From the IMG/VR virus record IMGVR_UViG_3300036859_000285, positions 1 to 57,561 of that record: 57,561 nucleotides of DNA, one strand, 5' to 3'. This DNA is from a virus. The notes below the pieces were generated by a model. It was not told the DNA's origin and ran no database searches. It was given only the letters and a program-made list of their open reading frames with translations. The position numbers were made by a program, and so were the translations under genes. Positions 17,269-54,672 of the stretch are shown piece after piece (position 1 is the stretch's first letter; each line of letters opens with the position of its first letter).

Positions 17269-17828
17269 TGGCACGACCGACCGGACGAACACGCCGCTAC
17301 CTCGCCCCCCTGGCCGGCGCCTTCCTCGTCGCTGTCGTCCTGGGCCTGTTCGCATGGCAGATCGCCGGCCTCACCGACCGGCTACGCCAGGCCGAGGCCG
17401 ACCGTGAGACCCTCGCCGCCCAGGTGCGAGGTCTGGGCGGAGTCCCCACTTATGCGCCGGCGCCCGGGCCGCCAGGCGCTCCAGGTGCGGCTGGCGTTCA
17501 GGGCCCGCCCGGGCCTCGAGGACCGTCCGGACCGCCAGGACCGACCGGGCCCAAGGGTGGCAAAGGGTCCGCGGGCAAACCCGGCATGGCAGGGCCGTCA
17601 GGGCCCGCGGGTGACGGCGGCCCCGCCGGCGCGAACGGCGCGGCCGGCGAGCAGGGGCCTGCAGGAGAGCAAGGCCCGCGCGGCGAGCAGGGAGCGCCCG
17701 GGCCGCAAGGCGAGCAGGGCCCGAAGGGAGACCCGCCCGCCCAGTTCACATTCGAGTTCTTGGGCGTGACGTACGTGTGTACGCCCGAGAGCAGCGGATC
17801 CGACAGCTACACCTGCCGCCCGACGTAG
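17268..17828 (+). CDS. Collagen-like membrane-anchored protein
   Basis: 186 residues. N-terminal membrane helix ([22 protein letters not shown]), short coil ([16 protein letters not shown]), then about 29 Gly-X-Y triplets from about residue 64 to 151 ([30 protein letters not shown]), and a C-terminal knob with two cysteines ([15 protein letters not shown]). Collagen-like trimers occur in phage fibres, but the N-terminal membrane helix suggests anchoring in the host envelope or use as a lysogen surface protein. It ends the late operon before a terminator. Confidence 0.85.
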
Positions 17829-18627: not shown

Positions 18628-19005
18628 ATGACCAAGAACGAAGAGCGCGAGATGCTACACAGGGCATTGAACGAGTCGCTCACCCTGATCGAGATGCAGG
18701 GCTGGAACGTCACCTCCGTGCATCAGTTCCCGCTGCAGTTCCGTGCCGCGATGGGCTGCGAGCCCGGCTACAGGGAGATGTACGACGCGGCGCATGCGGA
18801 CCCCCCGACGCTCGCTCGCCGGTACACCGCGCTGCAGGTCATCGCCAAATGCGTCGGCAAGCTGGGCTACAACGAGTCCGTTACGTTCGCCCTGCGCGAC
18901 CCCTACGGCAACGCCGGCGAGCTCCGACTCTGGTACCTCGAGGCCGCAAACCCCGATGTCCTGCACTGGCACATTGACGAGATGCTGGCAAAGTCCCTGG
19001 CCTAG
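18628..19005 (+). CDS. Hypothetical early protein, 125 aa
   Basis: ATG with GAGAGGA 8 bases upstream, behind promoter A. Begins MTKNEEREMLHRALNESLTL; mixed alpha-beta, no membrane segment, no motif I recognise (ALRDPYGNAGELRLWYLE near the C-terminus). First gene of a probable early operon running to about 22767. Confidence 0.65.
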   Translation: MTKNEEREMLHRALNESLTLIEMQGWNVTSVHQFPLQFRAAMGCEPGYREMYDAAHADPPTLARRYTALQVIAKCVGKLGYNESVTFALRDPYGNAGELRLWYLEAANPDVLHWHIDEMLAKSLA

Positions 19006-19046
19006 CCCCTGGACCAACCCACTGCTGACCGAACGGAGCCACGATC

Positions 19047-19517
19047 TTGAGCCGAGCAACCACATTCGCCGCCGTCCTCGCCGCGCTGTACGCCGCGCAC
19101 GAGATCGGCGACCAGTGGGTACAGACCCGCGCTCAAGCGTGCGCCAAGGGCGGCCGAGGACCCAACCAGCGAGCTGGGCAGGCCGCCTGCGCTCGCCACG
19201 TCGCGGGCATGACCGCGACCAAGGCCGTCATTCTGGCCATCACGGCGAAAACGACAGGGGTACGGTTGTCGCCTCGCCGGACCGCTCTCGCCCTCGCCGT
19301 CGACGCCGCCTCGCATTACTGGGCCGACCGCCGCTATCCCCTCGAGGGCCTCGCCCGCGTGCTCGGCAAGCAGGAGTACTACCGGCTCGGTCAGCCCCGC
19401 GCCGGCCGCAACGACAACCCCACCATTGGCACCGGCGCCTACGCCCTCGACCAGGCCTGGCATACCGCCTGGCTTTGGGTCACGGCGCTCATCATCAGTG
19501 AGGATGCCCCCCGATGA
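19047..19517 (+). CDS. Conserved hypothetical (HEIGDQW motif), 156 aa
   Basis: TTG start with GGAGCC upstream. AALYAAHEIGDQWVQT, then a basic middle, AGMTATKAVILAITA and DAASHYWADRRYPLEGLARVLGKQEYY. This reminds me of DUF3307-like proteins in actinobacterial mobile elements, some labelled transcriptional regulators. Histidines and acids spaced in hydrophobic helices suggest a membrane-linked metal site. The stop overlaps the next start. Confidence 0.6.
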   Translation: MSRATTFAAVLAALYAAHEIGDQWVQTRAQACAKGGRGPNQRAGQAACARHVAGMTATKAVILAITAKTTGVRLSPRRTALALAVDAASHYWADRRYPLEGLARVLGKQEYYRLGQPRAGRNDNPTIGTGAYALDQAWHTAWLWVTALIISEDAPR

Positions 19518-20083
19518 GCGACGCATTCTGGATCGACTACAAGTACGACCGTTCGAGCGACGGCAGGTCTCGGTACAGCAGCTACCTGCGCGACCGGCGC
19601 AAGCAGTTCGAAGAGATCGACAGCGACGACAAGACGGCCGCGTTCGCCGCGACCGCCTGGCGGATCGCCAACAGCCCGATCATGGCCCCCGGGTATGTCC
19701 GCCGCAGCGAGAGGATCCTGTCCGCCGAGCTCAACCGGTCATACGAGTACGAGGACGGCGCTCTTCTGGCCAATATCGAGATCGCCGTTGCGCTCCCGTC
19801 GTACCTGCGCTCCATCAGGCCGCCGGCCCAGGACGGAGCGGTCAGCCCCAGCTACTACGCCGACTGGCCGCACAACTACGCGGTGTACGAGGAAGACCCC
19901 GACCGCGGCCCCTACCTGCTGACAAAGGTCAAGGTTCTCACCAGGCTCCCGGCTCGGATCCTGCCCCTGCCCGGGTTCGGCGACGAGATCACCCTCGCCG
20001 AGGTACTCGCCGAGGCTCCCCATTTCGTCTCGGCCCTCGTCACCGTGCTCAACGGCATCGTCAACCCGATCCTGGCGGCGTGA
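19514..20083 (+). CDS. Hypothetical protein, 189 aa
   Basis: Overlaps the previous gene by four bases (ATGA). Begins MSDAFWIDYKYDRSSDGRSR; contains RILSAELNRSYEYEDGALLANIEIAVALPSYL and a hydrophobic C-terminus (HFVSALVTVLNGIVNPILAA). I do not recognise a family. Confidence 0.65.
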   Translation: MSDAFWIDYKYDRSSDGRSRYSSYLRDRRKQFEEIDSDDKTAAFAATAWRIANSPIMAPGYVRRSERILSAELNRSYEYEDGALLANIEIAVALPSYLRSIRPPAQDGAVSPSYYADWPHNYAVYEEDPDRGPYLLTKVKVLTRLPARILPLPGFGDEITLAEVLAEAPHFVSALVTVLNGIVNPILAA

Positions 20084-25422: not shown

Positions 25423-25770
25423 ATGAATTTACCACAAAACCCCCTATCGGCACAGGCGAATGAGCCTATCGATTCACCCTGTTTGCCCAGGTCAAAGGGT
25501 GATCTAGCACCCAACCGCGCCGAGTACTTCGCGCTTCTCTATCGCGAGCGCTACGGCGACATGGATCGCCTGGAAATGGAGCGGCACGCCCCCCTTCCAC
25601 CGGCGCCTGACCACGAGCGTCACGAAGAGCTCTACCTGCCGGTAACCCGCCTTGAGGCCTGGCGCAATCTCAGCGAACTGAACCGCACGGTTCGCGAAGT
25701 CGACGGCTACCTCGGCTTCTGGCGTTACCGCGACTCGGCAATCCCCGCGGCCGAGGGGGGAGAGGCGTGA
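25423..25770 (+). CDS. Hypothetical protein upstream of rep, 115 aa
   Basis: ATG with GGAGG 9 bases upstream, the site being part of a small hairpin. Begins MNLPQNPLSAQANEPIDSPC; contains RAEYFALLYRERYGDMDRLEMERH and a C-terminal amphipathic helix. No family recognised. GTGA overlap with the replication gene suggests a shared role or control. Confidence 0.6.
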   Translation: MNLPQNPLSAQANEPIDSPCLPRSKGDLAPNRAEYFALLYRERYGDMDRLEMERHAPLPPAPDHERHEELYLPVTRLEAWRNLSELNRTVREVDGYLGFWRYRDSAIPAAEGGEA

Positions 25771-26777
25771 GCGGCGAAGACGCCAAGAACGACGAGGTGA
25801 GGATCGAGCGGCCCGAGTGGAATCGCGATCTCTGGTCGCAGATGTACTGGGCCGTTTACGACGATCCCGACATGGATCGGAACGGCCATACCGCGTACAT
25901 GGCGTTGATCCGCTGGGTCAACTTCCAGACCCGTAGGACGAAGCCGATCTCACGAGCCGACCTCGCCAAAGGGGCTCGAGTCAGCGTCGACACCCTCGAT
26001 CGAGGGCTGCGCACGTGCGTGAAGCTCGGCTATGTCGAGGTAGTCAAGGACTTCGATCCGGACACCAACCGCTTCGGCGAATCGACCTACCTCGTGTACG
26101 ACGAGCGCGGCGCACGGGAAGCTCGAGCGGCGGCCGCAGTCACGGAAAGTGAGTCAACTACGGACCGTGAAACTACCAAGCCAGACCCTAGCCGCTCACA
26201 GCGGCCAGGTAGGGGTAGCCGCTCACAGCGGCCAGGGCAAACCGGTACAAGTCCGGAATGGGGTAGCCGCTCACAGCGGCTACCCCTAGCCGCTCACAGC
26301 GGCCACCTAGCCGCATATTGCGGCAGTACTACTAGAGAAGAAAACCAAGAAGAAGAGCGAGAGAAAGACCTACCCCTTCTCGCCGTAGGCGAGCGAACGG
26401 TCCGTAACGCGCGCGACGCGCCTACGGCGAAGGATCAAGATCTCGATTCGGTCGGGTTGGCGATCGCGCTTCGCCTGCCCGGGCCGTACGCCGCGGCGCC
26501 GATGTGGGTCCGCCGGATCGTTGGCGTGCGGATCGCGGCCGCGATCGCCGAGGGTCTGTCGCCGTGGGCGATCGAGGTCTACGCCGCTGCGTTCGCCGAT
26601 GATCCGGAGTACGGCGACTTCGAGCACCTCAAGGTGTTCGACGCCACCATGCGCAAGCTGGCCGACGACATTGCCCGCGGCGAGGCCTGCCCGGGATGCG
26701 GCCGCGATCCGTCGCATCCTTGGTGCGATGCAGCGATCACGGACGAAACGGAGTCAGGCGATGTTGCCCAAGCATGA
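25767..26777 (+). CDS. Replisome organiser / replication initiator with origin inside the gene
   Basis: 336 residues from a GTG. Residues 20-110 form a winged helix typical of phage replication initiators (DLWSQMYWAVYDD; ISRADLAKGARVSVDTLDRGLRTCVKLGYVEVV). Residues ~142-186 are encoded by five iterons and have odd composition (SRSQRPGRGSRSQRPG, then LAAHSGHLAAYCGS). An acidic linker (EENQEEEREKD) leads to a helical C-domain with CPGCGRDPSHPWC. The layout, DNA-binding domain before and partner-binding domain after an internal origin, parallels lambda O. Helicase-loader contact is inferred only. Confidence 0.8.
   Translation: MSGEDAKNDEVRIERPEWNRDLWSQMYWAVYDDPDMDRNGHTAYMALIRWVNFQTRRTKPISRADLAKGARVSVDTLDRGLRTCVKLGYVEVVKDFDPDTNRFGESTYLVYDERGAREARAAAAVTESESTTDRETTKPDPSRSQRPGRGSRSQRPGQTGTSPEWGSRSQRLPLAAHSGHLAAYCGSTTREENQEEEREKDLPLLAVGERTVRNARDAPTAKDQDLDSVGLAIALRLPGPYAAAPMWVRRIVGVRIAAAIAEGLSPWAIEVYAAAFADDPEYGDFEHLKVFDATMRKLADDIARGEACPGCGRDPSHPWCDAAITDETESGDVAQA
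26191..26324 (+). repeat. Iteron array (probable replication origin) inside the rep gene
   Basis: GCCGCTCACAGCGGC occurs at 26191, 26218, 26266 and 26289, with a diverged copy GCCGCATATTGCGGC at 26310. Each is itself a dyad (GCCGCT-CAC-AGCGGC). Copy 3 is part of a larger dyad with 12-bp arms and CAC centre at 26260-26286. Copies 1-3 are read in one frame (SRSQRP) and copies 4-5 in another (LAAHSG, LAAYCG), so conservation is at DNA level, not protein level. Confidence 0.8.
26325..26430 (+). other. Purine-rich stretch and 12-bp inverted repeat after the iterons
   Basis: From about 26330 to 26369 the + strand is almost all A and G (GAGAAGAAAACCAAGAAGAA and on), far less GC-rich than the genome; a candidate unwinding element. 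Then TCGCCGTAGGCG (26380-26391) and its exact inverse CGCCTACGGCGA (26419-26430) flank 27 bases. Lambda's origin has the same order of iterons then an A-rich purine strand. Confidence 0.55.
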
Positions 26778-27132
26778 TCTTCGTCCGTGCGCGTGCGGCG
26801 CCGAGATCCGCTGGACCATCACGACGGCCGGCCGCAAGCTCGCCGTCGACGCCAAACCGCACCCGCTCGGGAACGTCGCCTGTCACCGCGACCACATGGG
26901 GACCTGGCGGTCGCGGGTGCCGAACGCCGAGCTGCCGCTCGCGAACTTCGAGAAGTTGTTCATGCCGCACGCGGCGACGTGCACCAGCCCGCCGCCGGCG
27001 AAAAAGCCTCGAGCTCGAGCAGCGCGGGATCTGCGCATGGGTCCGGGCGCGCAAGTCGAGCTCGATCTCGGCCTCGGACTCCCGGAGGGCGTCAGCTCGC
27101 TCGCGGCATACCGCCGGCGGCGATCGCCATGA
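26761..27132 (+). CDS. Small zinc-binding protein of the replication operon, 123 aa
   Basis: ATG 17 bases inside the rep gene end. RPCACGAEIRWTITTAGRKLAVDAKP, then VACHRDHMG and a late HAATC, give a Cys/His set as in small zinc ribbons common in actinophages and integrative elements. The tail is basic. Possibly binds single-stranded DNA or RNA; not shown. Confidence 0.65.
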   Translation: MLPKHDLRPCACGAEIRWTITTAGRKLAVDAKPHPLGNVACHRDHMGTWRSRVPNAELPLANFEKLFMPHAATCTSPPPAKKPRARAARDLRMGPGAQVELDLGLGLPEGVSSLAAYRRRRSP

Positions 27133-27320: not shown

Positions 27321-27348
27321 ATTGAAGAGTGGTATCTGTCCGGCCCTG

Positions 27349-27375
27349 CCCCACCGTGTCACGGTGGGGCTTTTG
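27349..27375 (+). terminator. Intrinsic terminator of the replication operon
   Basis: GCCCCACCGTG-T-CACGGTGGGGC, an 11-bp perfect stem (three-base effective loop), followed by TTTT. Confidence 0.85.
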
Positions 27376-27658: not shown

Positions 27659-28213
27659 GTGAATTCACCCCCACACGCCCAACCCTGGGACGGCTCAGGA
27701 GAGGCCGCCAGTGGCCGCCAGGGCCACGACAAGCCCCTCTCTGGCATCCCAGGACCCGAAAACGACCCCCAGAGGCTCACGGAGCCGCACAGCGCCTCGC
27801 CGAAAGCCGGCGGATGCTGGGCCCTGTACTGCCGCTCCAACCGCGGCGGCGACGACGCGATGCAGACCCTCAACGCCCAAGAGGCCACGCTGCGCGCTCT
27901 CGCGGCCGCCCGCGGCGCCACCGTGTGCGGCGCCTGGCTCGAGATCGGCCCAGGCCCAGGCAGCGCCTATCACGCGATGATCCAGCACCTGCGCGGCAAC
28001 GGATGCGCACGCGTCGCCATCTACGACCTCGGCCGGCTCACCCGCGACCCCAACGAGTTTCAGCTCGTGATGGAGTTGCTCGCCGAGCTCGGCATCGGCC
28101 TGACCCTCGCGGACGGCACCGACCTGGATACCGCCGACGACCCCGTACTCAGGCTCAGGCTGTACGGCTTCGCACCGCGAAAGGCTCGCCTCGCCCCGGG
28201 ATCCAACTGGTGA
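27659..28213 (+). CDS. Resolvase-domain-only protein upstream of the integrase
   Basis: 184 residues from a GTG. After about 50 disordered residues it reads CWALYCRSNRGGDDAMQTLN, AQEATLRALAAARGATVCGAW, GCARVAIYDLGRLTRDPNEF, VMELLAELGIGLTLADG: the order of a serine-recombinase catalytic domain, ending where the DNA-binding part would begin. The DRLTR-type arginine motif is kept (R126, R129), but the serine is one place early (YCRS rather than YxRxS). Its TGA overlaps the integrase GTG, so the two are coupled. Perhaps an accessory or inhibitor subunit; a decayed or inactive paralogue is also possible. Confidence 0.7.
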   Translation: MNSPPHAQPWDGSGEAASGRQGHDKPLSGIPGPENDPQRLTEPHSASPKAGGCWALYCRSNRGGDDAMQTLNAQEATLRALAAARGATVCGAWLEIGPGPGSAYHAMIQHLRGNGCARVAIYDLGRLTRDPNEFQLVMELLAELGIGLTLADGTDLDTADDPVLRLRLYGFAPRKARLAPGSNW

Positions 28214-29646
28214 AACAAGGCATTCTCGCGGCCGCCGTGGCGCCCCTGCCATGCGGCATCTACGTCCGCATTTCCAAGGACAGGCTCATGGAAGGCCTCG
28301 GCGTCGCACGGCAGGAAGGCGACTGCCGAGCCCTGGCCGAGAAACGCGGATGGGCCGTCGTCGACGTCTACTGCGACAACGACGTTTCAGCGAGCGGCAA
28401 GAAAAAGCGAGAGCAGTGGGAACGTCTACTTGCCGACCTCCAGAGCGGCCGCATCCGCGCAATCGTCGCCTGGCATGTGGACCGGCTGACCCGCCGCCCT
28501 GTCGAGCTCGAGGGCGTTATCGATATGGCCGACCGGCTCGGCGTGCAGTTGGCGACCGTGAACGGCGAAATCGACCTCGGCACACCCACCGGGCGTGCAA
28601 TGGCCCGCATTCTCGGCGCCTGGGCTCGGCTCGAGGTTGAACAGAAATCGCTGCGGCAGCAAGCGGCGAATAAGCAACGTGCACATAGCGGAGAGGTGTG
28701 GTGTGGGGGCATGCGCTGCTACGGATATACAGAAGACGGCCACGGCATTATTGAGAAAGAGGCGGAGATAATCCGCGAGATGACTAAGCGAGTCATCAAT
28801 GGCGATTCCCTGAGAAGCCTTGTTCTCGAGCTGGTACAGCGCGGCATCACCACCACGACGGGCGGCCCGTGGCAGGCGTTGACGATCCGCCGGCTGCTGC
28901 AAAATCCCCGGCTGACAGGCAAGCGGGTCTACCGCGGCGAGGTCGTTGCTCAAGGCCAGTGGCCGGCCATCCTGGAGGAGGCGACCCAGCAACGCCTGAT
29001 CGCCGTCTTGGCCGATCCGGCTCGTCGCAAGGACCGCTCGCAGCCTGGCGAGGCCAAGGTCCGAAAGTACCTGCTGACAGGGATCCTGGTCTGCGGGATC
29101 TGTGGCAAGCCGCTGCAGGCGCAGCCGAGCAACGCCGGCCGGCGCGGGTACGTCTGCCGCAAGACGCCGCCGTACGGCGGGTGCGGCCGCATCCGCATTG
29201 CCGCCGAGCCCCTCGAGCTGGACGTCGCCGAGCGGGTCCTCGCCCGGTTCGCCTCGCCGTCCATCCGGCAAAAGCTGGCCGCGGCGAGCACGTTCGAGGA
29301 TGACGCCACGCTGACCGAGCAGATAGGCGAGCTCGAGCGCCGCCAGGTCGAAAACGCCGAGGACTACGCGAATGACTTGCTCGATCGCCGCGCTTACCGG
29401 CTCGCCCAGGAGAAGATCTCAACGCGGATCAAGGAGCTCCGCGGCCGGATCATGCACCTGACGAGGCTGGAGCATCTGCCGACTGAGGTCACACCGGTCA
29501 CGTTGGCGCAATGGTGGGCCGACGCGTCTTTGCAGCGTCGCCGCGATCTGATTCAAACGGTCTTCGAGCAGGTCGTGATCGGGCCGACGACGCGTCCTGG
29601 ATTTCAGGGACTCGACGAAGCGAGATTGACCTATATCGCCCGATAA
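28210..29646 (+). CDS. int: Large serine integrase
   Basis: 478 residues from the GTG overlapping the previous stop. Resolvase domain 15-165 with nucleophile in YVRISKD (S22) and HVDRLTRRP; recombinase domain about 185-270 (IIEKEAEIIREMTKRVINGD; GGPWQALTIRRLLQNPRLTG). A zinc ribbon starts at C295 (CGICGK ... YVCRKTPPYGGCG), then a coiled coil about 375-430 (LTEQIGELERRQVENAEDYA) and a C-terminal RLTYIAR. Catalyses attP x attB recombination; no recombination directionality factor is recognised by homology. Confidence 0.95.
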   Translation: MKQGILAAAVAPLPCGIYVRISKDRLMEGLGVARQEGDCRALAEKRGWAVVDVYCDNDVSASGKKKREQWERLLADLQSGRIRAIVAWHVDRLTRRPVELEGVIDMADRLGVQLATVNGEIDLGTPTGRAMARILGAWARLEVEQKSLRQQAANKQRAHSGEVWCGGMRCYGYTEDGHGIIEKEAEIIREMTKRVINGDSLRSLVLELVQRGITTTTGGPWQALTIRRLLQNPRLTGKRVYRGEVVAQGQWPAILEEATQQRLIAVLADPARRKDRSQPGEAKVRKYLLTGILVCGICGKPLQAQPSNAGRRGYVCRKTPPYGGCGRIRIAAEPLELDVAERVLARFASPSIRQKLAAASTFEDDATLTEQIGELERRQVENAEDYANDLLDRRAYRLAQEKISTRIKELRGRIMHLTRLEHLPTEVTPVTLAQWWADASLQRRRDLIQTVFEQVVIGPTTRPGFQGLDEARLTYIAR

Positions 29647-31146: not shown

Positions 31147-32219
31147 ACCTAGCCGACAGTTCAACGTTCACCCGTCCGATTATCAAGGCGCTTCGATCAC
31201 ATGCGAACGCGATCGCTCAGTCCATGGCCGGCCCTAAAGGATCACCTGCGGCCATTGAGCGGGCGCTGCCCGCGGCCGGCTGCTGGGTATACCTGTCGGC
31301 CGTCGTCGCCTGGGCCGAGGACCACGGCCTGATTGATCCCTGGCTACGGCCCGGGGCCACCGAGCTGCGCGAGACATGGCTGACCGCCGGCGGCGACATG
31401 CGGTCCTGGCTAGGCGTCGCGTTCACCTCGCTCGCCGTCCATCCGGCAACCCGCTGCCTGGTCGATCCACGCTATGCCCCCTTGCAAGACCGCGACCCTG
31501 GCGAGCCAGAACTACAGGCGCTGGTGGACTGGTGGGGTAAGGCGCCCTCCCTCGCCTACGAGACGGACAGCGGTCCGGCCTCGGTGTCAGGGTGGATTAT
31601 CGGCGACCTGCTGCAATACCTTCGCGATCCACGCCCCGACGGCGGAGGGGGCGGAAACGCTCAAACTCCCTGGTGGGTCGCCGATTTCATCCTCGACCGC
31701 ACCCTCGTCCCCGCTGTCGAAACGTTCCCGCTCGAGACGCTTCGCACCATCGATCCTGCATGCGGAACTGGCCACTTCCTCATCCGCAAGATCGACTATT
31801 TATGGCAGTGGTACACCACGGGGACACTCGCATCCAGGCAGGTCAAGCGTCCGCCGCTTACCGGAGGAAAGGTCCGGGCACCCATGGACGCGATCAAAAT
31901 GATCCTCGCTGGTGTCGATGGCTGCGAGATCGACCCGCTCACAGCGGCCGTTGCTCGACTGCGCATGGTGGTAGCGATAGGTCAGCTACTCCATCGGTCT
32001 GGGCTGATTTCGAGCCCTCGGCTCGATGCCATTCCAGCGTGGGTAACGCCGCGGGTCGCGGTCGGAGACTCCCTACTCGCGGGAAAGGTCAGCCAAACCG
32101 AGTACGAGGCGCTGCATCCTGAACTCGCAGCCATCGAGAACCTCGGGGTTCCCGAGCAGGTCCATCCTCCCGCGCCGACCTTTCAGCAAGATTCTCTGTT
32201 TGACGAGGCCAACGCATGA
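31143..32219 (+). CDS. N6-adenine methyltransferase-like protein lacking the NPPY motif
   Basis: 358 residues, ATGA overlap before and after. Residues about 175-330 (TPWWVADFILDRTL; TIDPACGTGHFLIRKIDYLW with SAM motif I at D204; GVDGCEIDPLTAAVARLRMV; RVAVGDSLL) follow the pattern of N6-adenine MTases of the PglX type. After GDSLL the chain ends without an (N/D)PPY catalytic motif or a target-recognition domain. It may bind SAM but should not methylate adenine alone. Could be a truncated enzyme, a partner subunit, or a decoy for host Pgl/BREX defence. Confidence 0.7.
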   Translation: MNLADSSTFTRPIIKALRSHANAIAQSMAGPKGSPAAIERALPAAGCWVYLSAVVAWAEDHGLIDPWLRPGATELRETWLTAGGDMRSWLGVAFTSLAVHPATRCLVDPRYAPLQDRDPGEPELQALVDWWGKAPSLAYETDSGPASVSGWIIGDLLQYLRDPRPDGGGGGNAQTPWWVADFILDRTLVPAVETFPLETLRTIDPACGTGHFLIRKIDYLWQWYTTGTLASRQVKRPPLTGGKVRAPMDAIKMILAGVDGCEIDPLTAAVARLRMVVAIGQLLHRSGLISSPRLDAIPAWVTPRVAVGDSLLAGKVSQTEYEALHPELAAIENLGVPEQVHPPAPTFQQDSLFDEANA

Positions 32220-32473
32220 CCAGGCCCGATCGCCGCACGCGGTCCGCCTATGAGCTGCAGCGCGACGACTACGTGCACGACACCGCTACCCCGATGCGAG
32301 TCGAGAGCGTCACGCCCGACCAGTTCGGTTCGATCACGGTTGTCGGCATCTGGGCCGCGGGAACAGAAATGACCATCCATCACCCGCGCGACCTGCAGCT
32401 CGACGTGACCCGCCTCGTCGACGCCGACGACCCCATCGCGCGGCAACTCTCCCTGACAGGAGTCACCCCATGA
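32216..32473 (+). CDS. Small hypothetical protein, 85 aa
   Basis: ATGA overlap on both sides. ELQRDDYVHDTATPMRVESV, then beta-rich SITVVGIWAAGTEMTIH. Looks like a small beta-barrel. Operon with the MTase-like gene. Unknown. Confidence 0.6.
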   Translation: MTRPDRRTRSAYELQRDDYVHDTATPMRVESVTPDQFGSITVVGIWAAGTEMTIHHPRDLQLDVTRLVDADDPIARQLSLTGVTP

Positions 32474-32745
32474 GGCTCGCGTTCCTCGCCCTCTCGACGA
32501 CAGGCCCCGACGTCCTACGGCACGAGACCTGGGAAATGTCCCTGATCATCCGCGACTTCCAGCGGCACGACTACGAGCAGCACTGGCAGATCATGCCCGT
32601 GCACCTCGCCAGCGCAGACCCCGACACGCTGCGCGTCAACGGCTACTACGACCGCATCGAAAAGTCCCTGTCGGCCGACGCGTTCGGCTACGACGACGAG
32701 GGCCTGCTCATCGGCCCCGCGCACCCGTCCGTGATCGCGAGCTGA
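32470..32745 (+). CDS. Truncated DnaQ-like exonuclease without catalytic residues, 91 aa
   Basis: MRLAFLALSTTGPDVLRHET, WEMSLIIRDFQRHDYEQHWQ, then HLASADPDTLRVNGYYDR. This follows the start of DEDD 3'-5' exonucleases; compare VFVDTETTSL ... EIGMIRRD ... LSEADPYSLEIGGFHER in the gene at 49991. The DxE of the first motif is replaced (LALSTTG) and the chain stops before the other acidic motifs. Enzymatically dead; role unknown. Confidence 0.6.
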   Translation: MRLAFLALSTTGPDVLRHETWEMSLIIRDFQRHDYEQHWQIMPVHLASADPDTLRVNGYYDRIEKSLSADAFGYDDEGLLIGPAHPSVIAS

Positions 32746-32759
32746 AGGACGAGCTGAAC

Positions 32760-32831
32760 ATGTGCGGTGCGATCGAATGCCGGGCGGACGCGGTCACGCC
32801 GAACGGCCGGTGTGCCGATCATCCCCGGTAG
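32760..32831 (+). CDS. Possible cysteine-rich micropeptide, 23 aa
   Basis: AAGGACGAG precedes ATG; the peptide is MCGAIECRADAVTPNGRCAD plus three more residues, with three Cys and one His. Size and zinc-knuckle pattern fit small phage peptides, but chance cannot be ruled out. Confidence 0.35.
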   Translation: MCGAIECRADAVTPNGRCADHPR

Positions 32832-32865
32832 GGACGTTGCTTTCTAGATCGTGGATACTGGCCCA

Positions 32866-33102
32866 ATGCTGGTGGTGCGCGTCGAAATCTGGCCGCAGGG
32901 TGAGGCTGAGCGGGCCCGTGAGCTCGGCCGTGTCATCATCGCGAACAAGAGCCGCCTGGCGCCGGTCTCCCGGTATGAGGTGACCTGTACGGCTCAGGAT
33001 GGGACGCGTATGGCGGAGGTGCGGCATCACCTGCGTGCGGACGGCTGGCTGGCGTTGGCGGCGCGGGCGCTGGCTGCGTGCGCCGAGTCGGCGCCCATCT
33101 AG
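32866..33102 (+). CDS. Small hypothetical protein, 78 aa
   Basis: Start uncertain: GTG at 32851 or ATG at 32866. MLVVRVEIWPQGEAERAREL, GRVIIANKS, then SRYEVTCTAQDGTRMAEVRH and a helical tail. No Shine-Dalgarno before the ATG; GATACT lies 7 bases upstream, which would suit a leaderless transcript. Such WPxGxxxRxxxLG proteins are frequent in actinobacteria with no assigned role. Confidence 0.6.
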   Translation: MLVVRVEIWPQGEAERARELGRVIIANKSRLAPVSRYEVTCTAQDGTRMAEVRHHLRADGWLALAARALAACAESAPI

Positions 33103-33122
33103 TCGGTGGTCGCCGTGGCTGC

Positions 33123-33791
33123 TCAGGTGTCGAGTACTCGTAGCGAGGCGACGTTTCCCGGCGTTCCCGGCGCGACCGGCAGCGGGTCCTTCCATACGAG
33201 GTGCGCGATCGTTGCGGCGACCGCCCTGACGTAGATGGGGACGGCGCCCTGGGGTTCTGGCTGGTCGGCTGGATCGGGTTGCTGGTTGATGGGCCGGTTC
33301 CAGACGTGCTGGTCGAGGCCGGGACGGCCGCGCGTCAGGGTGAGGCAGTAGAAGCGGCCGTCTATGTCGGCGGCGTGGATTGCCCGCTTCTCGACGGCGT
33401 CGTCGCGCTGGTGGAATCGGCGTTCGCGCCGGTCCCGCTGGTATCGGGCCTGTTCCCAGGGGGTGTCGTCCGCAGTTGCCGCGATCACGTCGTGTACTTC
33501 GATTAGGAGGGCGACTGCGTAGAGGCGGGGCTGGTGGCCGTTGACGATGCGCGCCAGTTCTCGTTCGGTCCAGTGGGCGGCCGTCTCCTGGATGAGCACT
33601 CCGAGGTGGTCTGGGTTGAAGGTGTAGGGGATGTCTTTGTTTCCGCACATCCGGATGTGGGTGCCGTCCCAGGAGAACGCCATCAGGCGGTGGGGGGTGT
33701 CCCAGGTGTGGCCGAGGATGAGCCCTTCGAGTGCGTCGCCGAGCTTGCTGGCGGGGGCACCGCGCGGTGGGCCGAACCGGTTGGCCGTCAT
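33123..33791 (-). CDS. Reverse-strand hypothetical protein, 222 aa
   Basis: Begins MTANRFGPPRGAPASKLGDA; contains LILGHTWDTPHRLMAFSWDG, ERELARIVNGHQPRLYAVAL and an Arg/His/Asp-rich part (RDRRERRFHQRDDAVEKRAI). GC3 is high in this frame. GAGG lies about 11 bases before the ATG. It is isolated on the reverse strand with a possible TACAGT -10 near 33815. No family recognised; looks like cargo. Confidence 0.6.
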   Translation of the reverse strand: MTANRFGPPRGAPASKLGDALEGLILGHTWDTPHRLMAFSWDGTHIRMCGNKDIPYTFNPDHLGVLIQETAAHWTERELARIVNGHQPRLYAVALLIEVHDVIAATADDTPWEQARYQRDRRERRFHQRDDAVEKRAIHAADIDGRFYCLTLTRGRPGLDQHVWNRPINQQPDPADQPEPQGAVPIYVRAVAATIAHLVWKDPLPVAPGTPGNVASLRVLDT

Positions 33792-33893
33792 GGGGGGGGT
33801 GGATCCTCGCACTTGATCACTGTAAAGAGTCTCACTCAGGGTATCGCCGCGAACGCGGGGTGGAACGGCGTGTTCGCATCCATAATCGGCTGG

Positions 33894-34193
33894 ATGCAGG
33901 ACGGTCCGGTGGCGGATGGCGTGAAGATCGCAAAAGCGGTGAGGACCTGCACGGCCTGCCCGTCCCAGTGGGACGCATGGACGCCCGACGGCCTTTACCT
34001 GTACCTGCGTTACCGGTTCGGGGTGGGCACGGTGGACCGATACGACTCGCCCGATCCGCAGACGTGGAGCGCTCTCCCCTCTGGCAGGGTGGCCTACTTC
34101 CAGTTCGGGAACGCCCTCGACGGGAGCATCGGCCTGGCGGATTTCATGAGACTCGCCGGACTGGAGTGGGCGGAGGAGCCGCCGCGTGAATGA
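33894..34193 (+). CDS. Conserved small protein (CPSQWDAW motif), 99 aa
   Basis: KIAKAVRTCTACPSQWDAWT, DGLYLYLRYRFGVGTVDRYD, IGLADFMRLAGLEWAEE. I recall this short protein from actinobacterial genomes, without a function. The start is unclear: the frame is open upstream to a TTG at 33813, and the ATG at 33894 has no strong ribosome site. Reads away from the reverse gene at 33123-33791. Confidence 0.6.
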   Translation: MQDGPVADGVKIAKAVRTCTACPSQWDAWTPDGLYLYLRYRFGVGTVDRYDSPDPQTWSALPSGRVAYFQFGNALDGSIGLADFMRLAGLEWAEEPPRE

Positions 34194-34545
34194 GATCGAC
34201 AAGTACGGGCTCGGCCAGGACATCCTGAGGGTGCGAGGCGTGACGCGGGTGATCGAGGTCAGCCTCAATCAGGTCCTGGCCCACGTGTTCACGTTCACCG
34301 TCGACGGCGCCGACTACGCGGTTTCGATTGACGCCGGTGAGCCGTGGAGTTCCATGATGAGCCCGCCTCCCATCTCGCGTGAGGGCACGAGTTCGCCTGA
34401 CGCGCCCTGGGTCCGAGAGCCGGTGTTCGCCGAGCTGTGGCGCCTCCTGCGGACCAACGGCAGCACATTCAAGGGCGGCGCGTCGTTCATCCGCGCCAGC
34501 GCGCCCGGCGGGTCGGCCGAAAGGTCAGGGCTGGGGCCCGCGTAG
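34186..34545 (+). CDS. Hypothetical protein, 119 aa
   Basis: GTG overlapping the previous stop by 8 bases. MNEIDKYGLGQDILRVRGVT, HVFTFTVDGADYAVSIDAGE, then a Pro/Ser-rich and basic tail. The 3' end overlaps the reverse GntR remnant by 21 bases, which suggests the tail is partly read-through into foreign sequence. Confidence 0.5.
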   Translation: MNEIDKYGLGQDILRVRGVTRVIEVSLNQVLAHVFTFTVDGADYAVSIDAGEPWSSMMSPPPISREGTSSPDAPWVREPVFAELWRLLRTNGSTFKGGASFIRASAPGGSAERSGLGPA

Positions 34546-34764
34546 CGGGAGATCGTCGTACACGAAGCGGGTGCGCGCGGGGTCGGCGACGATCGTCGTG
34601 TATTCGATGGGTCGGCCGTGCTGGTCGCGGGTGAGCCGGGCGACGGTGAGGACGTCGCGGCCGGGCAGGCGGAGCTCGGCGGCTTCGGCGCGGGTGGCTG
34701 GCCGTACGGCGAGTTCTTCGGTGGCGGTGGCGGGTTGGATGCCGATGCTGTTGAGTACGCCATA
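34525..34764 (-). pseudogene. C-terminal fragment of a GntR-family regulator (UTRA domain)
   Basis: Reverse strand reads TEELAVRPATRAEAAELRLP, GRDVLTVARLTRDQHGRPIE, YTTIVADPARTRFVYDDLPL, the usual end of a HutC/UTRA effector domain. No start codon or N-terminal winged helix lies upstream in frame; instead a + strand coding stretch begins at about 34777. Conjugative actinomycete plasmids use GntR regulators (KorSA/TraR type), so this may be the relic of a transfer repressor. Confidence 0.6.
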
Positions 34765-34776
34765 CTGGTCATGGTG

Positions 34777-35083
34777 GTTTCGGGTCGGCGGAACAATGTC
34801 GAGCTGACGCCGTGGAACTGCGCGTGTGTCTCGGAGAAGATGCGCTGCATTCGGGCGGACGTCAACGACCTGCCCTGGAACGCCTTCCAGCTCGCCCGCG
34901 TCGTCGAGCGAGACGAGATGGGCGTCCAGCAGGATCGGGGCGAGGTTGCGGGCGCCCCCGTTCGCCGGCCCTACGCCTGCGGTCATCCCCGAGGACGACG
35001 GGCCGCCGGTCATCGCGTCCCACATCGCTCTTGTTAGCCGCGCCCACGCCGAGGACCCTTCCAATATCGAGCTGAGAGCGTGA
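34777..35083 (+). pseudogene. Hypothetical gene frameshifted at a C5 run
   Basis: The frame from about 34777 (MVVSGRRNNVELTPWNCACV, RCIRADVNDLPWNAFQLARV) has high GC3 up to 34954. After GGCGCCCCCG (C run 34955-34959) GC3 moves to the next frame, reading FAGPTPAVIPEDDGPPVIAS to a stop at 35083. One C too many explains it: either a decayed gene or a sequencing slip. Product about 100 residues, unknown. Confidence 0.45.
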
Positions 35084-35101
35084 GGTTGTTCGGCCCCCGT
35101 C

Positions 35102-35584
35102 ATGACTGACTACCAAGCTCCCTCGCCACTGGCGGCTGACCGGCCTGGATTTCTCGACGCCATCGGTCGCCTGGTAGCCGCCGGGATCATCCCGCTTAGG
35201 AAGCCCTGCGGCGTCTGCATGGTCTGCGCGGGCCGCGTTCAGGGGAATGTCGAGTGCGACGGGGCCGCCGTGCTTGACGCCGTCGACTGGCCGGTAGAGC
35301 TGGCCACAGCCATCGGCCGCGCCGAACGGGCTGAGGCTGCGATCGCCCGCGCAGACGAGGCCGCCATCCGGGCCGACGAGCGCGACCGAGTCATCGGAGA
35401 GATCAACGAGTGCTTGCACCTGAGTGAGGGCGAGTCCGCTGCCATTGGTCTGCTCAGGTGGATCTTGACCCAGAACCAACGGGAACAGGCCCGCCCCAGA
35501 CGCGCAAAGGCGCCCGAGGCGCCTGGGGCGTTCGCGAGCGCCTTCCGTACAGTCTCGCCCGCCCTCGAGGACGACGGCGAATGA
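35102..35584 (+). CDS. Hypothetical coiled-coil protein, 160 aa
   Basis: MTDYQAPSPLAADRPGFLDA, CGVCMVCAGRVQGNVECDGA (four Cys, possible zinc site), then an Ala/Arg/Glu helix (AIGRAERAEAAIARADEAAI). Ends before an ATGA overlap with the next gene. No known family. Confidence 0.6.
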   Translation: MTDYQAPSPLAADRPGFLDAIGRLVAAGIIPLRKPCGVCMVCAGRVQGNVECDGAAVLDAVDWPVELATAIGRAERAEAAIARADEAAIRADERDRVIGEINECLHLSEGESAAIGLLRWILTQNQREQARPRRAKAPEAPGAFASAFRTVSPALEDDGE

Positions 35585-35997
35585 CCGAGGCCTCGGTCAA
35601 AAGGACGGCGCGCAAAGGCACGCCGCTGACGCTGTTGGATGTGGCCGGCCTGCTCGGCGACGCGGCGCGAGCAGGCATACCCGCACAGGCGACATTGCAT
35701 GGTGCCGCATACGGGTTGAAGGCACACCTTCGATGGATTGAGGCCCGCGCCGAGGACGACCACGGCGCCCCCTTGCACCGTATAGAAACCGCCGTCTCGG
35801 ACGCGATTAAGTCCGCGCCTCTCGGCGGCGAGGGCAGCGTCTATCTATTCCTGGCCCAGCTGAAACGCAACGCCTACGCGGTTGTACCGCTCGGCATATT
35901 CAAATATCTGAAACATCTGGACGACGCATGCGCGACCGGGGATTGCGTATGCGGGTTTGAGCAGATACACCGGCTCGGCCGATATCCGACCTCGTAA
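35581..35997 (+). CDS. Hypothetical protein, 138 aa
   Basis: MTEASVKRTARKGTPLTLLD, GLKAHLRWIEARAEDDHGAP, KRNAYAVVPLGIFKYLKHLD, then a Cys pair CATGDCVCG. Codon choice in the last third is slightly more AT-rich than neighbours. Unknown. Confidence 0.6.
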   Translation: MTEASVKRTARKGTPLTLLDVAGLLGDAARAGIPAQATLHGAAYGLKAHLRWIEARAEDDHGAPLHRIETAVSDAIKSAPLGGEGSVYLFLAQLKRNAYAVVPLGIFKYLKHLDDACATGDCVCGFEQIHRLGRYPTS

Positions 35998-36028
35998 CAC
36001 CAACTCCTATTGAATCGGGGGATTCATC

Positions 36029-38763: not shown

Positions 38764-40788
38764 GTGCCACCGAGGGCCCCGAAGCCGCCGTTGCGGGTTG
38801 CTGTCGGCCAGCGTCTGGCCGGCCGCCCGCAAATCCATCTTGGCCAGCATGTCGGCCAGCATCAGAAGGCTCCTTCCCCTGGCCTTCTGTCGCGTGCCGC
38901 CGGCTGGATCCAGGCGGCACCGACCGAGCGCGCCCCGCTGCCTATTGGCGTGGGCGTGTTCGGCGTCGGCGAGATCCTCCACGTGACGCACACGCCCGCG
39001 TGGATGATCGGCATGGGCGTCCTCGGCGGCACCGTCGCAGCGTGGGGCGCGGTCCTCAACCGGACCAAGGACGGTCCGGCCGCGTTCAAGGCCGGCGCCG
39101 CGGTGATCGCCGCCGGCGCCTGGCTGTCCACTGCGGCGCTCGTCGGCGTCGACGCCTGGATGACCGCGGTCTACTGGGGCCTGTTCGGCGTTGCGTACGG
39201 CATCTATCGAGCCGACGACCTCACCCGCCAACAGGTGTACTGGCGCAAACAGAAAGCGTCCTGGCACCAGCTCGCCCGCCAGTTCGGAATCCCCGGATCA
39301 ACCCTGCTCAAGATCGAAGACACCCGCCTCGGGCAGAAACTCGTCATCGACGTCAAGGGCGCCGGCCGACGCGCCTCGCACATTGTCGCCTCGGACCTAG
39401 CCGAGCGGATCGCCGAACACCACATGATCCCCAAGGTGCGCGTGCAGGTGCGTGAGGCGAACATCGCCGGCCGCATCATCGTGTCGATCCGGATGAAAAG
39501 CCCGTGGGACGTGCCGATCAAGCACCCCACCCTTGACCCGACGTCCGAGATCGTGCTGCCCGAGATCGCCGACATCCGCGAGCCGCAGATCGTCGGCATC
39601 GACCCCGAGAACGGCCGGCCCCTCGAGATCACGTTCTGGGATGAGGACGGCGCCCGCAACATCCTGCTCGTCGCCGTCAAAGGCGGGGGCAAGTCGGTCC
39701 TGGTGTCCGACGTGCTCGAGCGGCTCACCGCGGCCGACAACGTGTGCATCTTCGGCATCGACCTGTCCAAGGCCAAAGAGATGCGGCGCTGGCGCAAGGC
39801 CCTCTACCTATCCGCCTGCGGCCCCGGGGAACGCGTCAAGGCGCTGCGCATGCTGGAGATCGCGCACGCAATCATCGACTGGCGGGCCGCACAGCCGACC
39901 GACGACGCCGTGCACGTGCCGACCAAACGCAAGCCGTACGTCGCCGTCATCGTCGACGAGATGTCCGCGGCGCTCGGCGTCAACGACCCGATCGGCCTGG
40001 CGATCCGCGAGCACATGGCCTACATCACGTCCAAGGGCCGAAGTGAAGCGGTCGGCGCGTTCCTCGTCGGGCAGCGTGGCACCGTCTCGCACCTGGGTAC
40101 GGCCGACATCCGCTCCATGGTCGACACGGTCATCCTGCAAAAGCTCAACCGCAAGGGCGAGGCCGCGCATGCCGCCGGCGAGCTCGGCCTCGAGCTTCCC
40201 GACATGTCGCGGTACGGCGAGGGCAAGCCTGGCGTCACCTGCATCGCGCAGATCGACGGCTCGTATGAGCTTGGGCGGACCTTCGCTCTGGTCGACCTGC
40301 GCGACATCGACCGGATCGCGGCCGAGCGCACCCCCTGCCCGCTCGAGCCCGAGCTTGTGGAGTTCCTCGGCCCGAAGCTCGCCAAACTGCACGACCCGAT
40401 CGAGCCCGGGCAGCTCGCCGAGACCGCACCCGAGGCGGCCGAGCAGGCGGCCCAGGGCGCGAGCATCCGCGAGAGCGTCCGCCGCTACCTGTTCGCCGTC
40501 CCCGACATGGCCAACCCGTCGCCTGAGATGGCCGCCAAGTTCGCCGAGGCCGCGGCGATCCGCCGAGCCCAAGCGGCCGAGCAGACCGTGCTGTCCGACG
40601 ACGTCCGCGCCCGCGTCATCGAACTGCTCAAGGAAGGGACCACGGTCCGCGCCGTGACCAAGCATCTGGACATCGGGCAGACGTCGACCTGGCGCGTCAT
40701 GGACCGGCTACGGCAGGAAGGTGTCGCGGTCTGCACGAGCCGCGGCCGTAACGCCCGCTGGCACCTCGCAGAGAGTGACTCAGCGTGA
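38764..40788 (+). CDS. FtsK/SpoIIIE-type DNA translocase, TraB-like conjugation protein
   Basis: 674 residues from a GTG. Membrane helices lie around residues 60-145 (PIGVGVFGVGEIL; AVIAAGAWLSTAALVGVDAW). The motor domain has Walker A VKGGGKSVL (K310) and Walker B AVIVDEMSA (D398), then ITSKGRSEAVGAFLVGQRGT. A C-terminal winged helix follows (RARVIELLKEGTTVRAVTKH, LDIGQTSTWRVMDRLRQEGV). In Streptomyces, TraB of this layout moves double-stranded plasmid DNA between hyphae as a hexamer, reading 8-bp clt repeats with its winged helix. A phage role in chromosome or phage DNA partition is the alternative. Confidence 0.85.
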   Translation: MPPRAPKPPLRVAVGQRLAGRPQIHLGQHVGQHQKAPSPGLLSRAAGWIQAAPTERAPLPIGVGVFGVGEILHVTHTPAWMIGMGVLGGTVAAWGAVLNRTKDGPAAFKAGAAVIAAGAWLSTAALVGVDAWMTAVYWGLFGVAYGIYRADDLTRQQVYWRKQKASWHQLARQFGIPGSTLLKIEDTRLGQKLVIDVKGAGRRASHIVASDLAERIAEHHMIPKVRVQVREANIAGRIIVSIRMKSPWDVPIKHPTLDPTSEIVLPEIADIREPQIVGIDPENGRPLEITFWDEDGARNILLVAVKGGGKSVLVSDVLERLTAADNVCIFGIDLSKAKEMRRWRKALYLSACGPGERVKALRMLEIAHAIIDWRAAQPTDDAVHVPTKRKPYVAVIVDEMSAALGVNDPIGLAIREHMAYITSKGRSEAVGAFLVGQRGTVSHLGTADIRSMVDTVILQKLNRKGEAAHAAGELGLELPDMSRYGEGKPGVTCIAQIDGSYELGRTFALVDLRDIDRIAAERTPCPLEPELVEFLGPKLAKLHDPIEPGQLAETAPEAAEQAAQGASIRESVRRYLFAVPDMANPSPEMAAKFAEAAAIRRAQAAEQTVLSDDVRARVIELLKEGTTVRAVTKHLDIGQTSTWRVMDRLRQEGVAVCTSRGRNARWHLAESDSA

Positions 40789-52209: not shown

Positions 52210-54672
52210 GTGTCCGTACGGTTCAGCGCAGACGCCCAGGACTTCACTCGCAGTCTGTCCCTCGGCTCCCAAACCAAGATCACCGTCTGCTGTTGGGTCC
52301 GCCTGCAGGTCGACCGCAACACCACGCAATGCGCTTGGGACATCGACGCAGGCACCGGCGACTCCTACATCATGGAGACCGGCAGCGACGGCACCACGAT
52401 GGGCGTCTGGAACAAGCTGGGAACCCAGCTGTTCACGACCGCGATGACCGTGGGCGTCTGGTACTTCTTCGGATTCTCGTGCAACGGCATCAACTGGACG
52501 GCCACCCGCCGCGCCGCGACCGCCTCGAGCTTCACCGTCAGCACCGGCTCGAGCGCCAACACGTCGACGACCTGCACGAACCTGCAACTCGGCGAGTCCG
52601 CGTTCAACAACGAGTGGATGAACGGCAACCTCGCCGCGTTCAAGCTCTGGGTCGGCCAGACGTTGACGCAGGCCGAAATGGAGGCCGAGGCCTGGTCGTT
52701 CATGCCCGTCCGCGTCGCGAACCTGACCGCCTGGTACCCGTTCCTCAAATCCGAGACGGCCGACTACAGCGGCAACGGCCGCACCCTGTCAGGCGGATCC
52801 GGCACCTCGAGCGAAGACAACCCGCCGATCGCGTGGGGCCCCTACCCGGTACCGCTGTTCCTGCCACCGTCGATCCACATCACTGCAGTCGGCCAGGCCA
52901 CCGAGACCGACACCGCCCAAACGGTCACCAGGGTCAAGATCAGCACCCTGGGCCAAGCTGTCGAGACCGACACCGCGCAGGCGGCCGGCAGGGTCAAGAG
53001 CAAGGCAGTCGGCCAGGCCCTCGAGACCGATACCGCCACGGCCGCCGGCCGAACCAAGACCCGCGCGGTCGGCCAAGCGCTGGAGACCGACACCGCGACC
53101 GCCCTCGGCCGAACCAAGACCCGCGCCCTCGGCCAGGCCCTCGAGACCGACTCGGCCGGCGCTCTCACCCGCAGCAAGACCCGCACCCTCGGCCAGGCCC
53201 TCGAGACCGACACGGCGCAAGCCGTACAGGCCGCGAAAACCAGGGTGACTGGCCAAGCGATCGAGGTCGATTCGGCACATCCTCTCGCCGGCGCGAAAGT
53301 CAGCGTCCTCGGCGAGGCGTTTGAGGTCGACACCGCGCAGCCAGTCACCCGGGCAAAGCTCGCCACCCTCGGCCAAGCTGCCGAGCTCGACGTCGCCCAA
53401 CCGATCACCGGCACGAAGACGTCGACCATCGGCCAGGCCCTCGAGGTCGACTCGGCCGGATCCGTGGCCGGTAGCCACGTCCAGGCGATCGGCCAAGCGG
53501 TCGAGGTCGACACAGCGGCCGCAGTCGCCGGCTCAAAGACCGCGACGATCGGCCAGGCCCTCGAGGTCGACTCGGCCCAGGCCGTACACGGCGTCAAGAC
53601 CAGCGCGCTCGGCCAGGTCCTCGAGCAGGATACGGCGACCGCCGTACAAGCCGCCAAGAGCGCGACCATCGGCCAGGCCGTCGAGGTCGACATTGCCGCC
53701 CCGGTCACCGCGAGCCGCACAGCGACGATCGGCCAGGCCCTCGAGGTCGACAGCGCCCAGGCCGTACACGGCGTCAAGACGCAGCAGGTCGGCCAGGCCC
53801 TCGAGGTCGACTCGGCCCAGGCCTTACACGGCGTCAAGACCGCGACTATCGGCCAGGCCCTCGAGGCAGATCTCGCCCAGCCCATCACCGGCCACGTCAT
53901 CCAAGGCCTCGGCCAAACCGTCGAGGTCGACACCGCGCAGCCCGTCCAGGGCGCGAAAATCCGCGCGATCGGCCAGGCCCTCGAGCAGGACACCGCGGCC
54001 GCCGTACAAGCCGCCAAGAGCGCGACCATCGGCCAGGCCCTCGAGCAGGACGCCGCCAAGGCCGTACAGGGCGTCAAGACCTGGACGATCGGCCAAGCCG
54101 TCGAAGTCGACTCGGCCGGCTCGGTCGCGACGTTCACCTACTTCCAACTTGGCCAATCCGCCGAGCTCGACACCGCGCAGCCCATCACCGGCACGAAGAC
54201 ATCGACCATCGGCCAGGCACTCGAGGCCGACACCGCCGGCAGCACCAGCGCCGGCAAGAGCGCGACCATCGGCCAGGCCCTCGAGCAGGACGCGGCCCAG
54301 GCCGTACAGGGCGTCAAGACCTGGACGATCGGCCAAGCCGTCGAGGTCGACTCGGCCACGGCACTCAGCACCCGCCGGATCACCAGCATCGGCCAAGCCG
54401 CCGAGCAGGACCTCGCCCAGACGTTGACGCGGGTCAAGGTCCGCGCCATCGGCGAGGCTCTCGAGGTCGACACCGCCCAGCCGATTACCGGCCGGCAGAT
54501 CCACGGCGACATCACCGTCACCGCAACCGGCCTCACCCGCGACCGAACCGCCAGCGGGCCCACACAGGGCCGAGCAGGCGGCAACCTCGCCGATGCACGG
54601 TCAGGCCGTCCCGCTGAACGCGGCCGCGGCACCCAAGGCCCCGCCCGCGGCTGGTCCGCCGGCGCGACATAG
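52210..54672 (+). CDS. Lectin-like (LamG) fibre protein with 27 twenty-residue repeats
   Basis: 820 residues from a GTG. Residues 1-205 form a concanavalin/LamG-like domain (VRFSADAQDFTRSLSLGSQT, WYFFGFSCNGINWTATRRAA, NNEWMNGNLAAFKLWVGQTL), likely sugar binding. Residues 226-765 are 27 units of exactly 20 residues with core GQALEVDTAQ. The end is Arg/Gly-rich and disordered. The regular repeats suggest a beta-solenoid or fibrous stalk carrying the lectin head; many units share D(T/S)A turns. Probable receptor-binding or decoration fibre. Confidence 0.8.
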   Translation: MSVRFSADAQDFTRSLSLGSQTKITVCCWVRLQVDRNTTQCAWDIDAGTGDSYIMETGSDGTTMGVWNKLGTQLFTTAMTVGVWYFFGFSCNGINWTATRRAATASSFTVSTGSSANTSTTCTNLQLGESAFNNEWMNGNLAAFKLWVGQTLTQAEMEAEAWSFMPVRVANLTAWYPFLKSETADYSGNGRTLSGGSGTSSEDNPPIAWGPYPVPLFLPPSIHITAVGQATETDTAQTVTRVKISTLGQAVETDTAQAAGRVKSKAVGQALETDTATAAGRTKTRAVGQALETDTATALGRTKTRALGQALETDSAGALTRSKTRTLGQALETDTAQAVQAAKTRVTGQAIEVDSAHPLAGAKVSVLGEAFEVDTAQPVTRAKLATLGQAAELDVAQPITGTKTSTIGQALEVDSAGSVAGSHVQAIGQAVEVDTAAAVAGSKTATIGQALEVDSAQAVHGVKTSALGQVLEQDTATAVQAAKSATIGQAVEVDIAAPVTASRTATIGQALEVDSAQAVHGVKTQQVGQALEVDSAQALHGVKTATIGQALEADLAQPITGHVIQGLGQTVEVDTAQPVQGAKIRAIGQALEQDTAAAVQAAKSATIGQALEQDAAKAVQGVKTWTIGQAVEVDSAGSVATFTYFQLGQSAELDTAQPITGTKTSTIGQALEADTAGSTSAGKSATIGQALEQDAAQAVQGVKTWTIGQAVEVDSATALSTRRITSIGQAAEQDLAQTLTRVKVRAIGEALEVDTAQPITGRQIHGDITVTATGLTRDRTASGPTQGRAGGNLADARSGRPAERGRGTQGPARGWSAGAT
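52885..54504 (+). repeat. 27 x 60-bp coding tandem repeat
   Basis: Each 60-base unit carries a core like ATCGGCCAGGCCCTCGAG and codes for (T/A)IGQALE(V/T/Q)D plus a variable half. The phase never slips across 1620 bases. Some units are near-identical (for example those starting about 53545 and 53725), which points to recent copying; others are diverged. This also makes long reverse-strand open frames that are not genes. Confidence 0.9.

Follow-up and report, generated by a model that had tools for sequence, protein, structure and literature searches.

A putative lambda/SPP1-type replication origin embedded in the initiator gene of an actinobacterial phage

Introduction

Does a cluster of short dyads inside the rep gene of an actinobacterial phage mark the place where the phage begins to replicate, or does it serve the gene in some other way? 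The locus lies near 26.2 kb of a whole IMG/VR virus record of 57,561 bp without end repeats (hereafter the window), whose first 24 kb carry terminase, portal, protease, capsid, tape-measure and endolysin genes. An initial annotation of the window had taken the cluster for a Lambda-O-like origin. To our knowledge, the origins of most actinobacterial phages are unmapped. In a study of mycobacteriophage RepA prophages, no repeats were found in the searched region, and the origin was suspected to lie upstream of or within repA, like that of lambda (PMC7157519).

Results

A directional iteron array lies within rep

The array spans 26191-26324, wholly inside a 336-aa open reading frame (25767-26777). 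Its initial description as five 15-bp dyads including one variant is accurate. The dyad GCCGCTCACAGCGGC is present in four exact copies starting at 26191, 26218, 26266 and 26289 on the + strand, and the fifth, GCCGCATATTGCGGC at 26310-26324, keeps both arms but differs at its centre. The unit common to the copies exceeds 15 bp: it is directional, measures about 19 bp (TAGCCGCTCACAGCGGCCA), and all five iterons have the left TAG flank and the same + strand orientation. The gene and its iterons are the following.

25767..26777, + strand: rep, replication initiator, 336 aa, GTG start (phrog_186, E 1e-4; winged-helix profile, E 1.5e-4)
25806..26123, + strand: N-terminal winged helix-turn-helix domain, predicted iteron binder, residues ~14-119 (phrog_186 and profile match; low-confidence AF2 helices and wing)
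26187..26205, + strand: iteron 1, dyad 26191-26205 (motif search)
26214..26232, + strand: iteron 2, dyad 26218-26232 (motif search)
26242..26256, + strand: tentative degenerate iteron in the 48-bp gap, weak; centre 24 bp from both neighbours, outer 4/7 pairs, 6/15 identity to the iteron
26262..26280, + strand: iteron 3, dyad 26266-26280, extended dyad 26260-26286 (motif search)
26285..26303, + strand: iteron 4, dyad 26289-26303, in a reading frame other than that of iterons 1-3
26306..26324, + strand: iteron 5, variant centre
26442..26735, + strand: C-terminal helical domain of Rep with a CPGC...C knuckle, predicted helicase or loader contact (AF2 helices 226-303, pLDDT ~55-75)
26761..27132, + strand: 123-aa ORF downstream of rep (PHROG match, phrog_5984)

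Under a first-order model, about 0.0009 exact copies of the dyad are expected per strand of the window. No second cluster of the motif was found elsewhere in the record; the next one-mismatch site is a single one in another gene (31934-31948; 0.055 expected). That site, which has no TAG flank and is outscored by a chance site at 22969, is unlikely to be a second origin in the fashion of SPP1. Within the array, the iteron centres are 27, 48, 23 and 21 bp apart, 48 being twice 24. The empty position in the 48-bp gap holds a weak dyad (CCGGTACAAGTCCGG, centred at 26249), which may tentatively be read as a decayed sixth site.

The iterons fall in frames 1,1,1,0,0 of the rep ORF, in agreement with the earlier observation that copies 1-3 and copies 4-5 are translated differently. 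The linker peptide reads as SRSQRP-like repeats, and iterons 4 and 5, in the other frame, encode AAHSG and AAYCG. We kept the Rep protein and resampled its codons 20,000 times according to phage codon usage. The most copies of any 15-mer obtained was three, in 8 of the 20,000 trials, against the four observed. Since none of the recodings gave four copies of a 15-mer, the need to encode Rep does not account for the DNA repeats. GC3 is normal in the flanks of the array (0.78 before, 0.79 after), while codon-position GC is inverted inside it (GC2 0.76, GC3 0.54) and low in the tract that follows (0.35 at the second position, 0.43 at the third). The earlier impression of a peptide forced by the DNA agrees with this breakdown, which fits residues dictated by the DNA in both array and tract.

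The array adjoins a predicted unwinding element

Three further DNA elements were recorded downstream of iteron 5.

26325..26372, + strand: A+T-rich, purine-rich tract directly after iteron 5, predicted DNA unwinding element (composition)
26380..26430, no strand assigned: inverted repeat TCGCCGTAGGCG / CGCCTACGGCGA, 12-nt arms (26380/26419) 27 nt apart, role uncertain
27348..27370, + strand: terminator-like hairpin at the end of the rep operon (2 such hairpins found against 1.9 expected in shuffles)

The tract contains the only 40-bp windows in the 57.6-kb record with an A+T fraction of at least 0.6 and a purine bias of at least 0.8. It also ranks with the least stable 50-bp stretches of the record. 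Over the 50 bp after the array, A+T content is 58%, compared with a record average of 33%. Right after the last iteron, positions 26325-26335 read AGTACTACTAG (CTAGTAGTA on the opposite strand), reminiscent of DnaA-trio-type triplets. The inverted repeat at 26380/26419 is reminiscent of lambda but was dropped as an origin element: the window has other perfect 12-nt inverted repeats, and this one was not found in the 13 relatives checked.

A GC-skew peak at 26.2 kb had also been anticipated, and no inflection was found there. Elsewhere in the record, 32000-36000 has a local positive GC skew opposite to that of the remaining record, 52-57 kb has a strong AT skew, and 52210-54672 is an 820-aa ORF with 60-bp periodic repeats.

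Rep has an initiator-type winged helix and no sequence match to the O family

The lone PHROG match of Rep is a weak one to phrog_186, 'DnaD-like helicase loader' (residues 20-114, E 1e-4), and searches of Pfam and NCBIfam gave no match. A profile built from nine other phage winged-helix initiators also matches the Rep N-terminus, weakly (E 1.5e-4); the best E among the decoys, comprising 3,000 shuffles and 578 window ORFs, was 0.5. By this profile, the Rep winged helix belongs with those of actinophage RepA-like initiators. In sequence terms, Rep fits a broad group of RepA-like winged-helix proteins, phrog_270 and its neighbours, and some members of that group match O-like PHROGs. Rep itself does not join the Lambda O family by sequence, as phrog_186 was its only match and O-like PHROGs match distant relatives only. 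The "Lambda-O-like" label holds for the layout, with iterons embedded as in lambda, rather than for the protein sequence. It is well supported, on comparative grounds, that the locus would work like ori-lambda; membership of Rep in the O family is not supported by its sequence.

The best single-sequence relative of Rep is a Rep-like protein of a Streptomyces plasmid, 34.5% identical over 84 aa, with an E of 4e-6 in a small database and 0.5 in the full plasmid collection. No close homologues were found in phages, plasmids, viral contigs or genome contigs; a genus-level genome search for Rep relatives yielded nothing convincing, an iteron-pair scan over viral contigs yielded none, and the portal-sharing phages among the viral records gave no Rep match. 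Seven host genomes of portal-sharing phages contained one relevant match, in a Microbacterium prophage.

Single-sequence AF2 models of Rep are poor (mean pLDDT 48 and 57) and serve solely to locate the array. They order the protein as helix-turn-helix-wing, an unstructured low-confidence region (~137-223) and a C-terminal helical domain, which would place the array in the linker between the winged-helix N-domain and the C-terminal helical domain. A PDB search from the low-confidence model was meaningless and was set aside. No helicase or loader gene was recognised near rep, in a region where many proteins are without any match; the neighbouring ORF at 26761-27132, looked at for a P-type helicase loader, has no Pfam match beyond its phrog_5984 assignment.

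The same layout recurs in related initiator genes

Twenty-six initiator genes were picked by protein similarity or annotation, blind to repeats. At least three repeats were present in 18 of the 26, while control tiles cut from the records that hold these genes reached that number in 9 of 177 cases (Fisher p 2e-13, a value that is indicative only, as several of the 26 are near-duplicates and relatives are non-independent). The arrays are mostly located directly after the winged helix, with a pitch of mostly 22-25 bp. The comparison of related rep genes that the initial annotation had called for came out as it anticipated: slot and pitch are largely kept, while repeat sequence, reading frame and encoded residues vary. 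The array studied here sits in the same place, and its spacings accord with a pitch of ~24 bp directly after the winged helix. A separate group of four short repeats, spaced 18-27 bp, is found at 17645-17720 in a tail-region gene, the sole control tile with four copies.

Same-slot arrays are found in the Arthrobacter phages Kovu, Laroye, Edmundo, Waltz, Shrooms, Altadena, Bumble, Kuleana and Galaxy, and also in Lactococcus phage CAP and Streptomyces plasmid Reps, and each group has repeat sequences of its own; some of the array-bearing relatives are annotated 'RepA-like replication initiator'. The Microbacterium prophage initiator has three 22-bp dyads of the GGGGCGTCAAATATGACGCCCC type straight after its winged helix, followed by an A-rich tract. 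The Rep of the JCM17656 Streptomyces plasmid carries embedded dyads at 24/23 bp, and the corresponding pCQ4 region has spacings of 47/22/22. Some relatives (Gsput1, Daredevil, ReT1v2) have only two copies or microsatellite-like repeats. Because the pitch is mostly 22-25 bp, successive copies often switch frame, as in Kuleana (0,1,2), Vendetta (0,1,2), Lactococcus CAP (0,1,0,1,0) and Kovu (0,1,1,0).

Two of these loci have peculiarities of their own. In the Microbacterium prophage (positions 1840-1860 of its locus), the reading frame of rep closes at the last iteron with a stop codon that an ATG overlaps, and the C-domain is encoded in another frame. In the pCQ4 rep region (18743-19900 of its locus), an HNH endonuclease segment interrupts, and four dyad-like repeats of the CGGGGGGACTnnnAGTCC type come after it.

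Of 17 genes examined, most show A+T enrichment in the 50 bp that follow the array (48-60% in most GC-rich records, against a locus average of 31-37%), and purine bias is not conserved. The purine-rich strand noted after the array is a feature of the tract in this record; what relatives mostly keep is the A+T-richness. The predicted RNA fold of the array is often unremarkable in these genes, and dyad symmetry of the repeats is common but variable in strength. Taken together, the survey of repeats, A+T content, purine bias and RNA folding identifies direct DNA repeats at helical pitch and neighbouring A+T-rich DNA as the recurring elements.

Alternative explanations of the repeats

Repeats of this kind could be operators for Rep or a repressor that only autoregulate the gene, with the origin elsewhere. 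Dyads suit a dimeric regulator, and the genes of some relatives carry the annotation 'transcriptional repressor'; however, the array lies ~420 bp into the gene, far from any promoter, and beside the unique A+T/purine tract of the record, annotated replication initiators use the same slot, and the record has no other cluster of the motif. We regard a purely regulatory role as unlikely. A role for the dyads as hairpins in the rep transcript, in attenuation, stability or translation control, is still less probable. The predicted fold is strong, with z at -5.6 over 26180-26440 and at -7.1 over the array, but no U-run follows the dyads, all Rfam matches are far under the gathering score, and the repeats of Prairie, Kovu, Kuleana, Galaxy, Vendetta and Lactococcus CAP occur without hairpins (z near 0). 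Growth of a disordered protein linker by slippage, with no role for the DNA, is the least credible reading: it would suit the SRSQRP-like repeats and the unstructured stretch of the low-confidence model, but copies 4-5 retain the DNA in another frame, recoding of the protein never yields four repeats, and the 22-24 bp pitches in relatives move the frame from copy to copy.

Embedded origin and phage-plasmid status

Lambda has an embedded origin, yet it integrates. An origin of this kind consequently does not imply a phage-plasmid, and the earlier argument from the one to the other fails. Prophages of phage-plasmids are maintained outside the chromosome and as a rule have no integrase; the record here encodes a large serine integrase (28210-29646), and no match to the partition genes ParA/ParB was found in it, although the record may be incomplete. 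A short resolvase N-domain ORF (27659-28213) abuts the integrase gene at 28210. The record also has a plasmid-transfer-like gene in a phage setting, an FtsK/TraB-like ATPase with a C-terminal HTH at 38764-40788, which matched only Streptomyces plasmids in the two annotated collections searched; one match is a 99-kb S. atratus phage-plasmid with terminase and capsid genes. Plasmid pCQ4, which is among the C-terminal relatives of the Streptomyces plasmid Rep family, carries capsid, portal, terminase and TraA/TraB genes. With the nearest Rep and FtsK/TraB-like relatives on Streptomyces plasmids, phage-plasmids included, the record may yet represent a phage-plasmid.

Discussion

The repeats with their reading frames, the low-stability tract, the winged helix of initiator type and the recurrence of the layout among relatives are all seen directly. 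From them we propose that 26187-26372 is very probably a phage replication origin inside its own initiator gene, of the lambda/SPP1 type with embedded iterons. Rep dimers would use the winged helix to bind the 19-bp dyad iterons, five or perhaps six in number. With iteron centres about two helical turns apart, the dimers would occupy similar faces of the DNA, copy 1 excepted, and the complex could bend or wrap the DNA and strain the adjacent tract. The A+T/purine tract would then melt, the Rep C-terminal domain would recruit a DnaB-type helicase, either itself or by way of a loader, and theta replication would start with host enzymes. Binding, melting and loading are modelled on lambda and SPP1, where these steps are established (PMC3349717, PMC3985674, PMC6316719).

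The evidence leans modestly towards a wider rule, namely that winged-helix initiators of actinobacterial phages, Streptomyces phage-plasmids and Firmicutes relatives share one origin design. Each would have a private iteron array in one and the same slot of the linker, with the pitch fixed at ~24 bp regardless of frame, the sequence being replaced from phage to phage together with protein specificity. If this is true, a rep gene would directly reveal both the origin and the compatibility group. Embedded origins as a kind have been known since lambda; their generality and frame-independence across actinophage and phage-plasmid initiators seem, from the literature searched, to be unreported. The layout rule would give testable origin coordinates for many 'RepA-like' phages and candidate minimal replicons for vectors, and would allow replication incompatibility to be read from sequence.

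In lambda, four 18-bp iterons and 38 bp of A+T-rich DNA all lie within O (PMC3349717); the iteron is a 19-bp imperfect inverted repeat, and additional iterons in lambdoid relatives just add residues to O (PMC7466680). Like ori-lambda and its lambdoid counterparts, which have 4-6 dyadic iterons of 18-19 bp in mid-gene, the array here consists of ~19-bp imperfect inverted repeats inside the initiator coding sequence and adjoins an A+T-rich stretch at 26325-26372. As in O, the N-domain is the (here predicted) binder and the iterons encode an extendable linker. Unlike in lambda, Rep falls outside the O-like PHROGs, the iteron sequence is unrelated, no P-type loader is recognised beside rep, and the inverted repeat at 26380/26419 is unseen in the relatives checked.

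SPP1 provides a second parallel. Its replisome organizer gp38 binds the oriL repeats within gene 38, alongside an AT-rich region (PMC6316719), and the present locus likewise has direct repeats within the initiator gene and an adjacent AT-rich unwinding element. SPP1 differs in that it has oriR as a second origin and encodes a loader (gp39) and a helicase (gp40) of its own; neither is seen here.

The Reps of Streptomyces plasmids and phage-plasmids (JCM17656 plasmid, pCQ4) resemble the present one in their embedded dyads and include its best single-sequence match; those replicons are plasmids, pCQ4 with capsid and Tra genes, while the record here has an integrase. The Arthrobacter phage 'RepA-like replication initiators' of phrog_270 (Kovu, Laroye, Edmundo, Prairie) have other iterons and other C-terminal domains, and their identity to Rep is too low for BLAST, but they share with it the winged helix, the iteron array (mostly 22-25 bp pitch) and the A+T-rich stretch.
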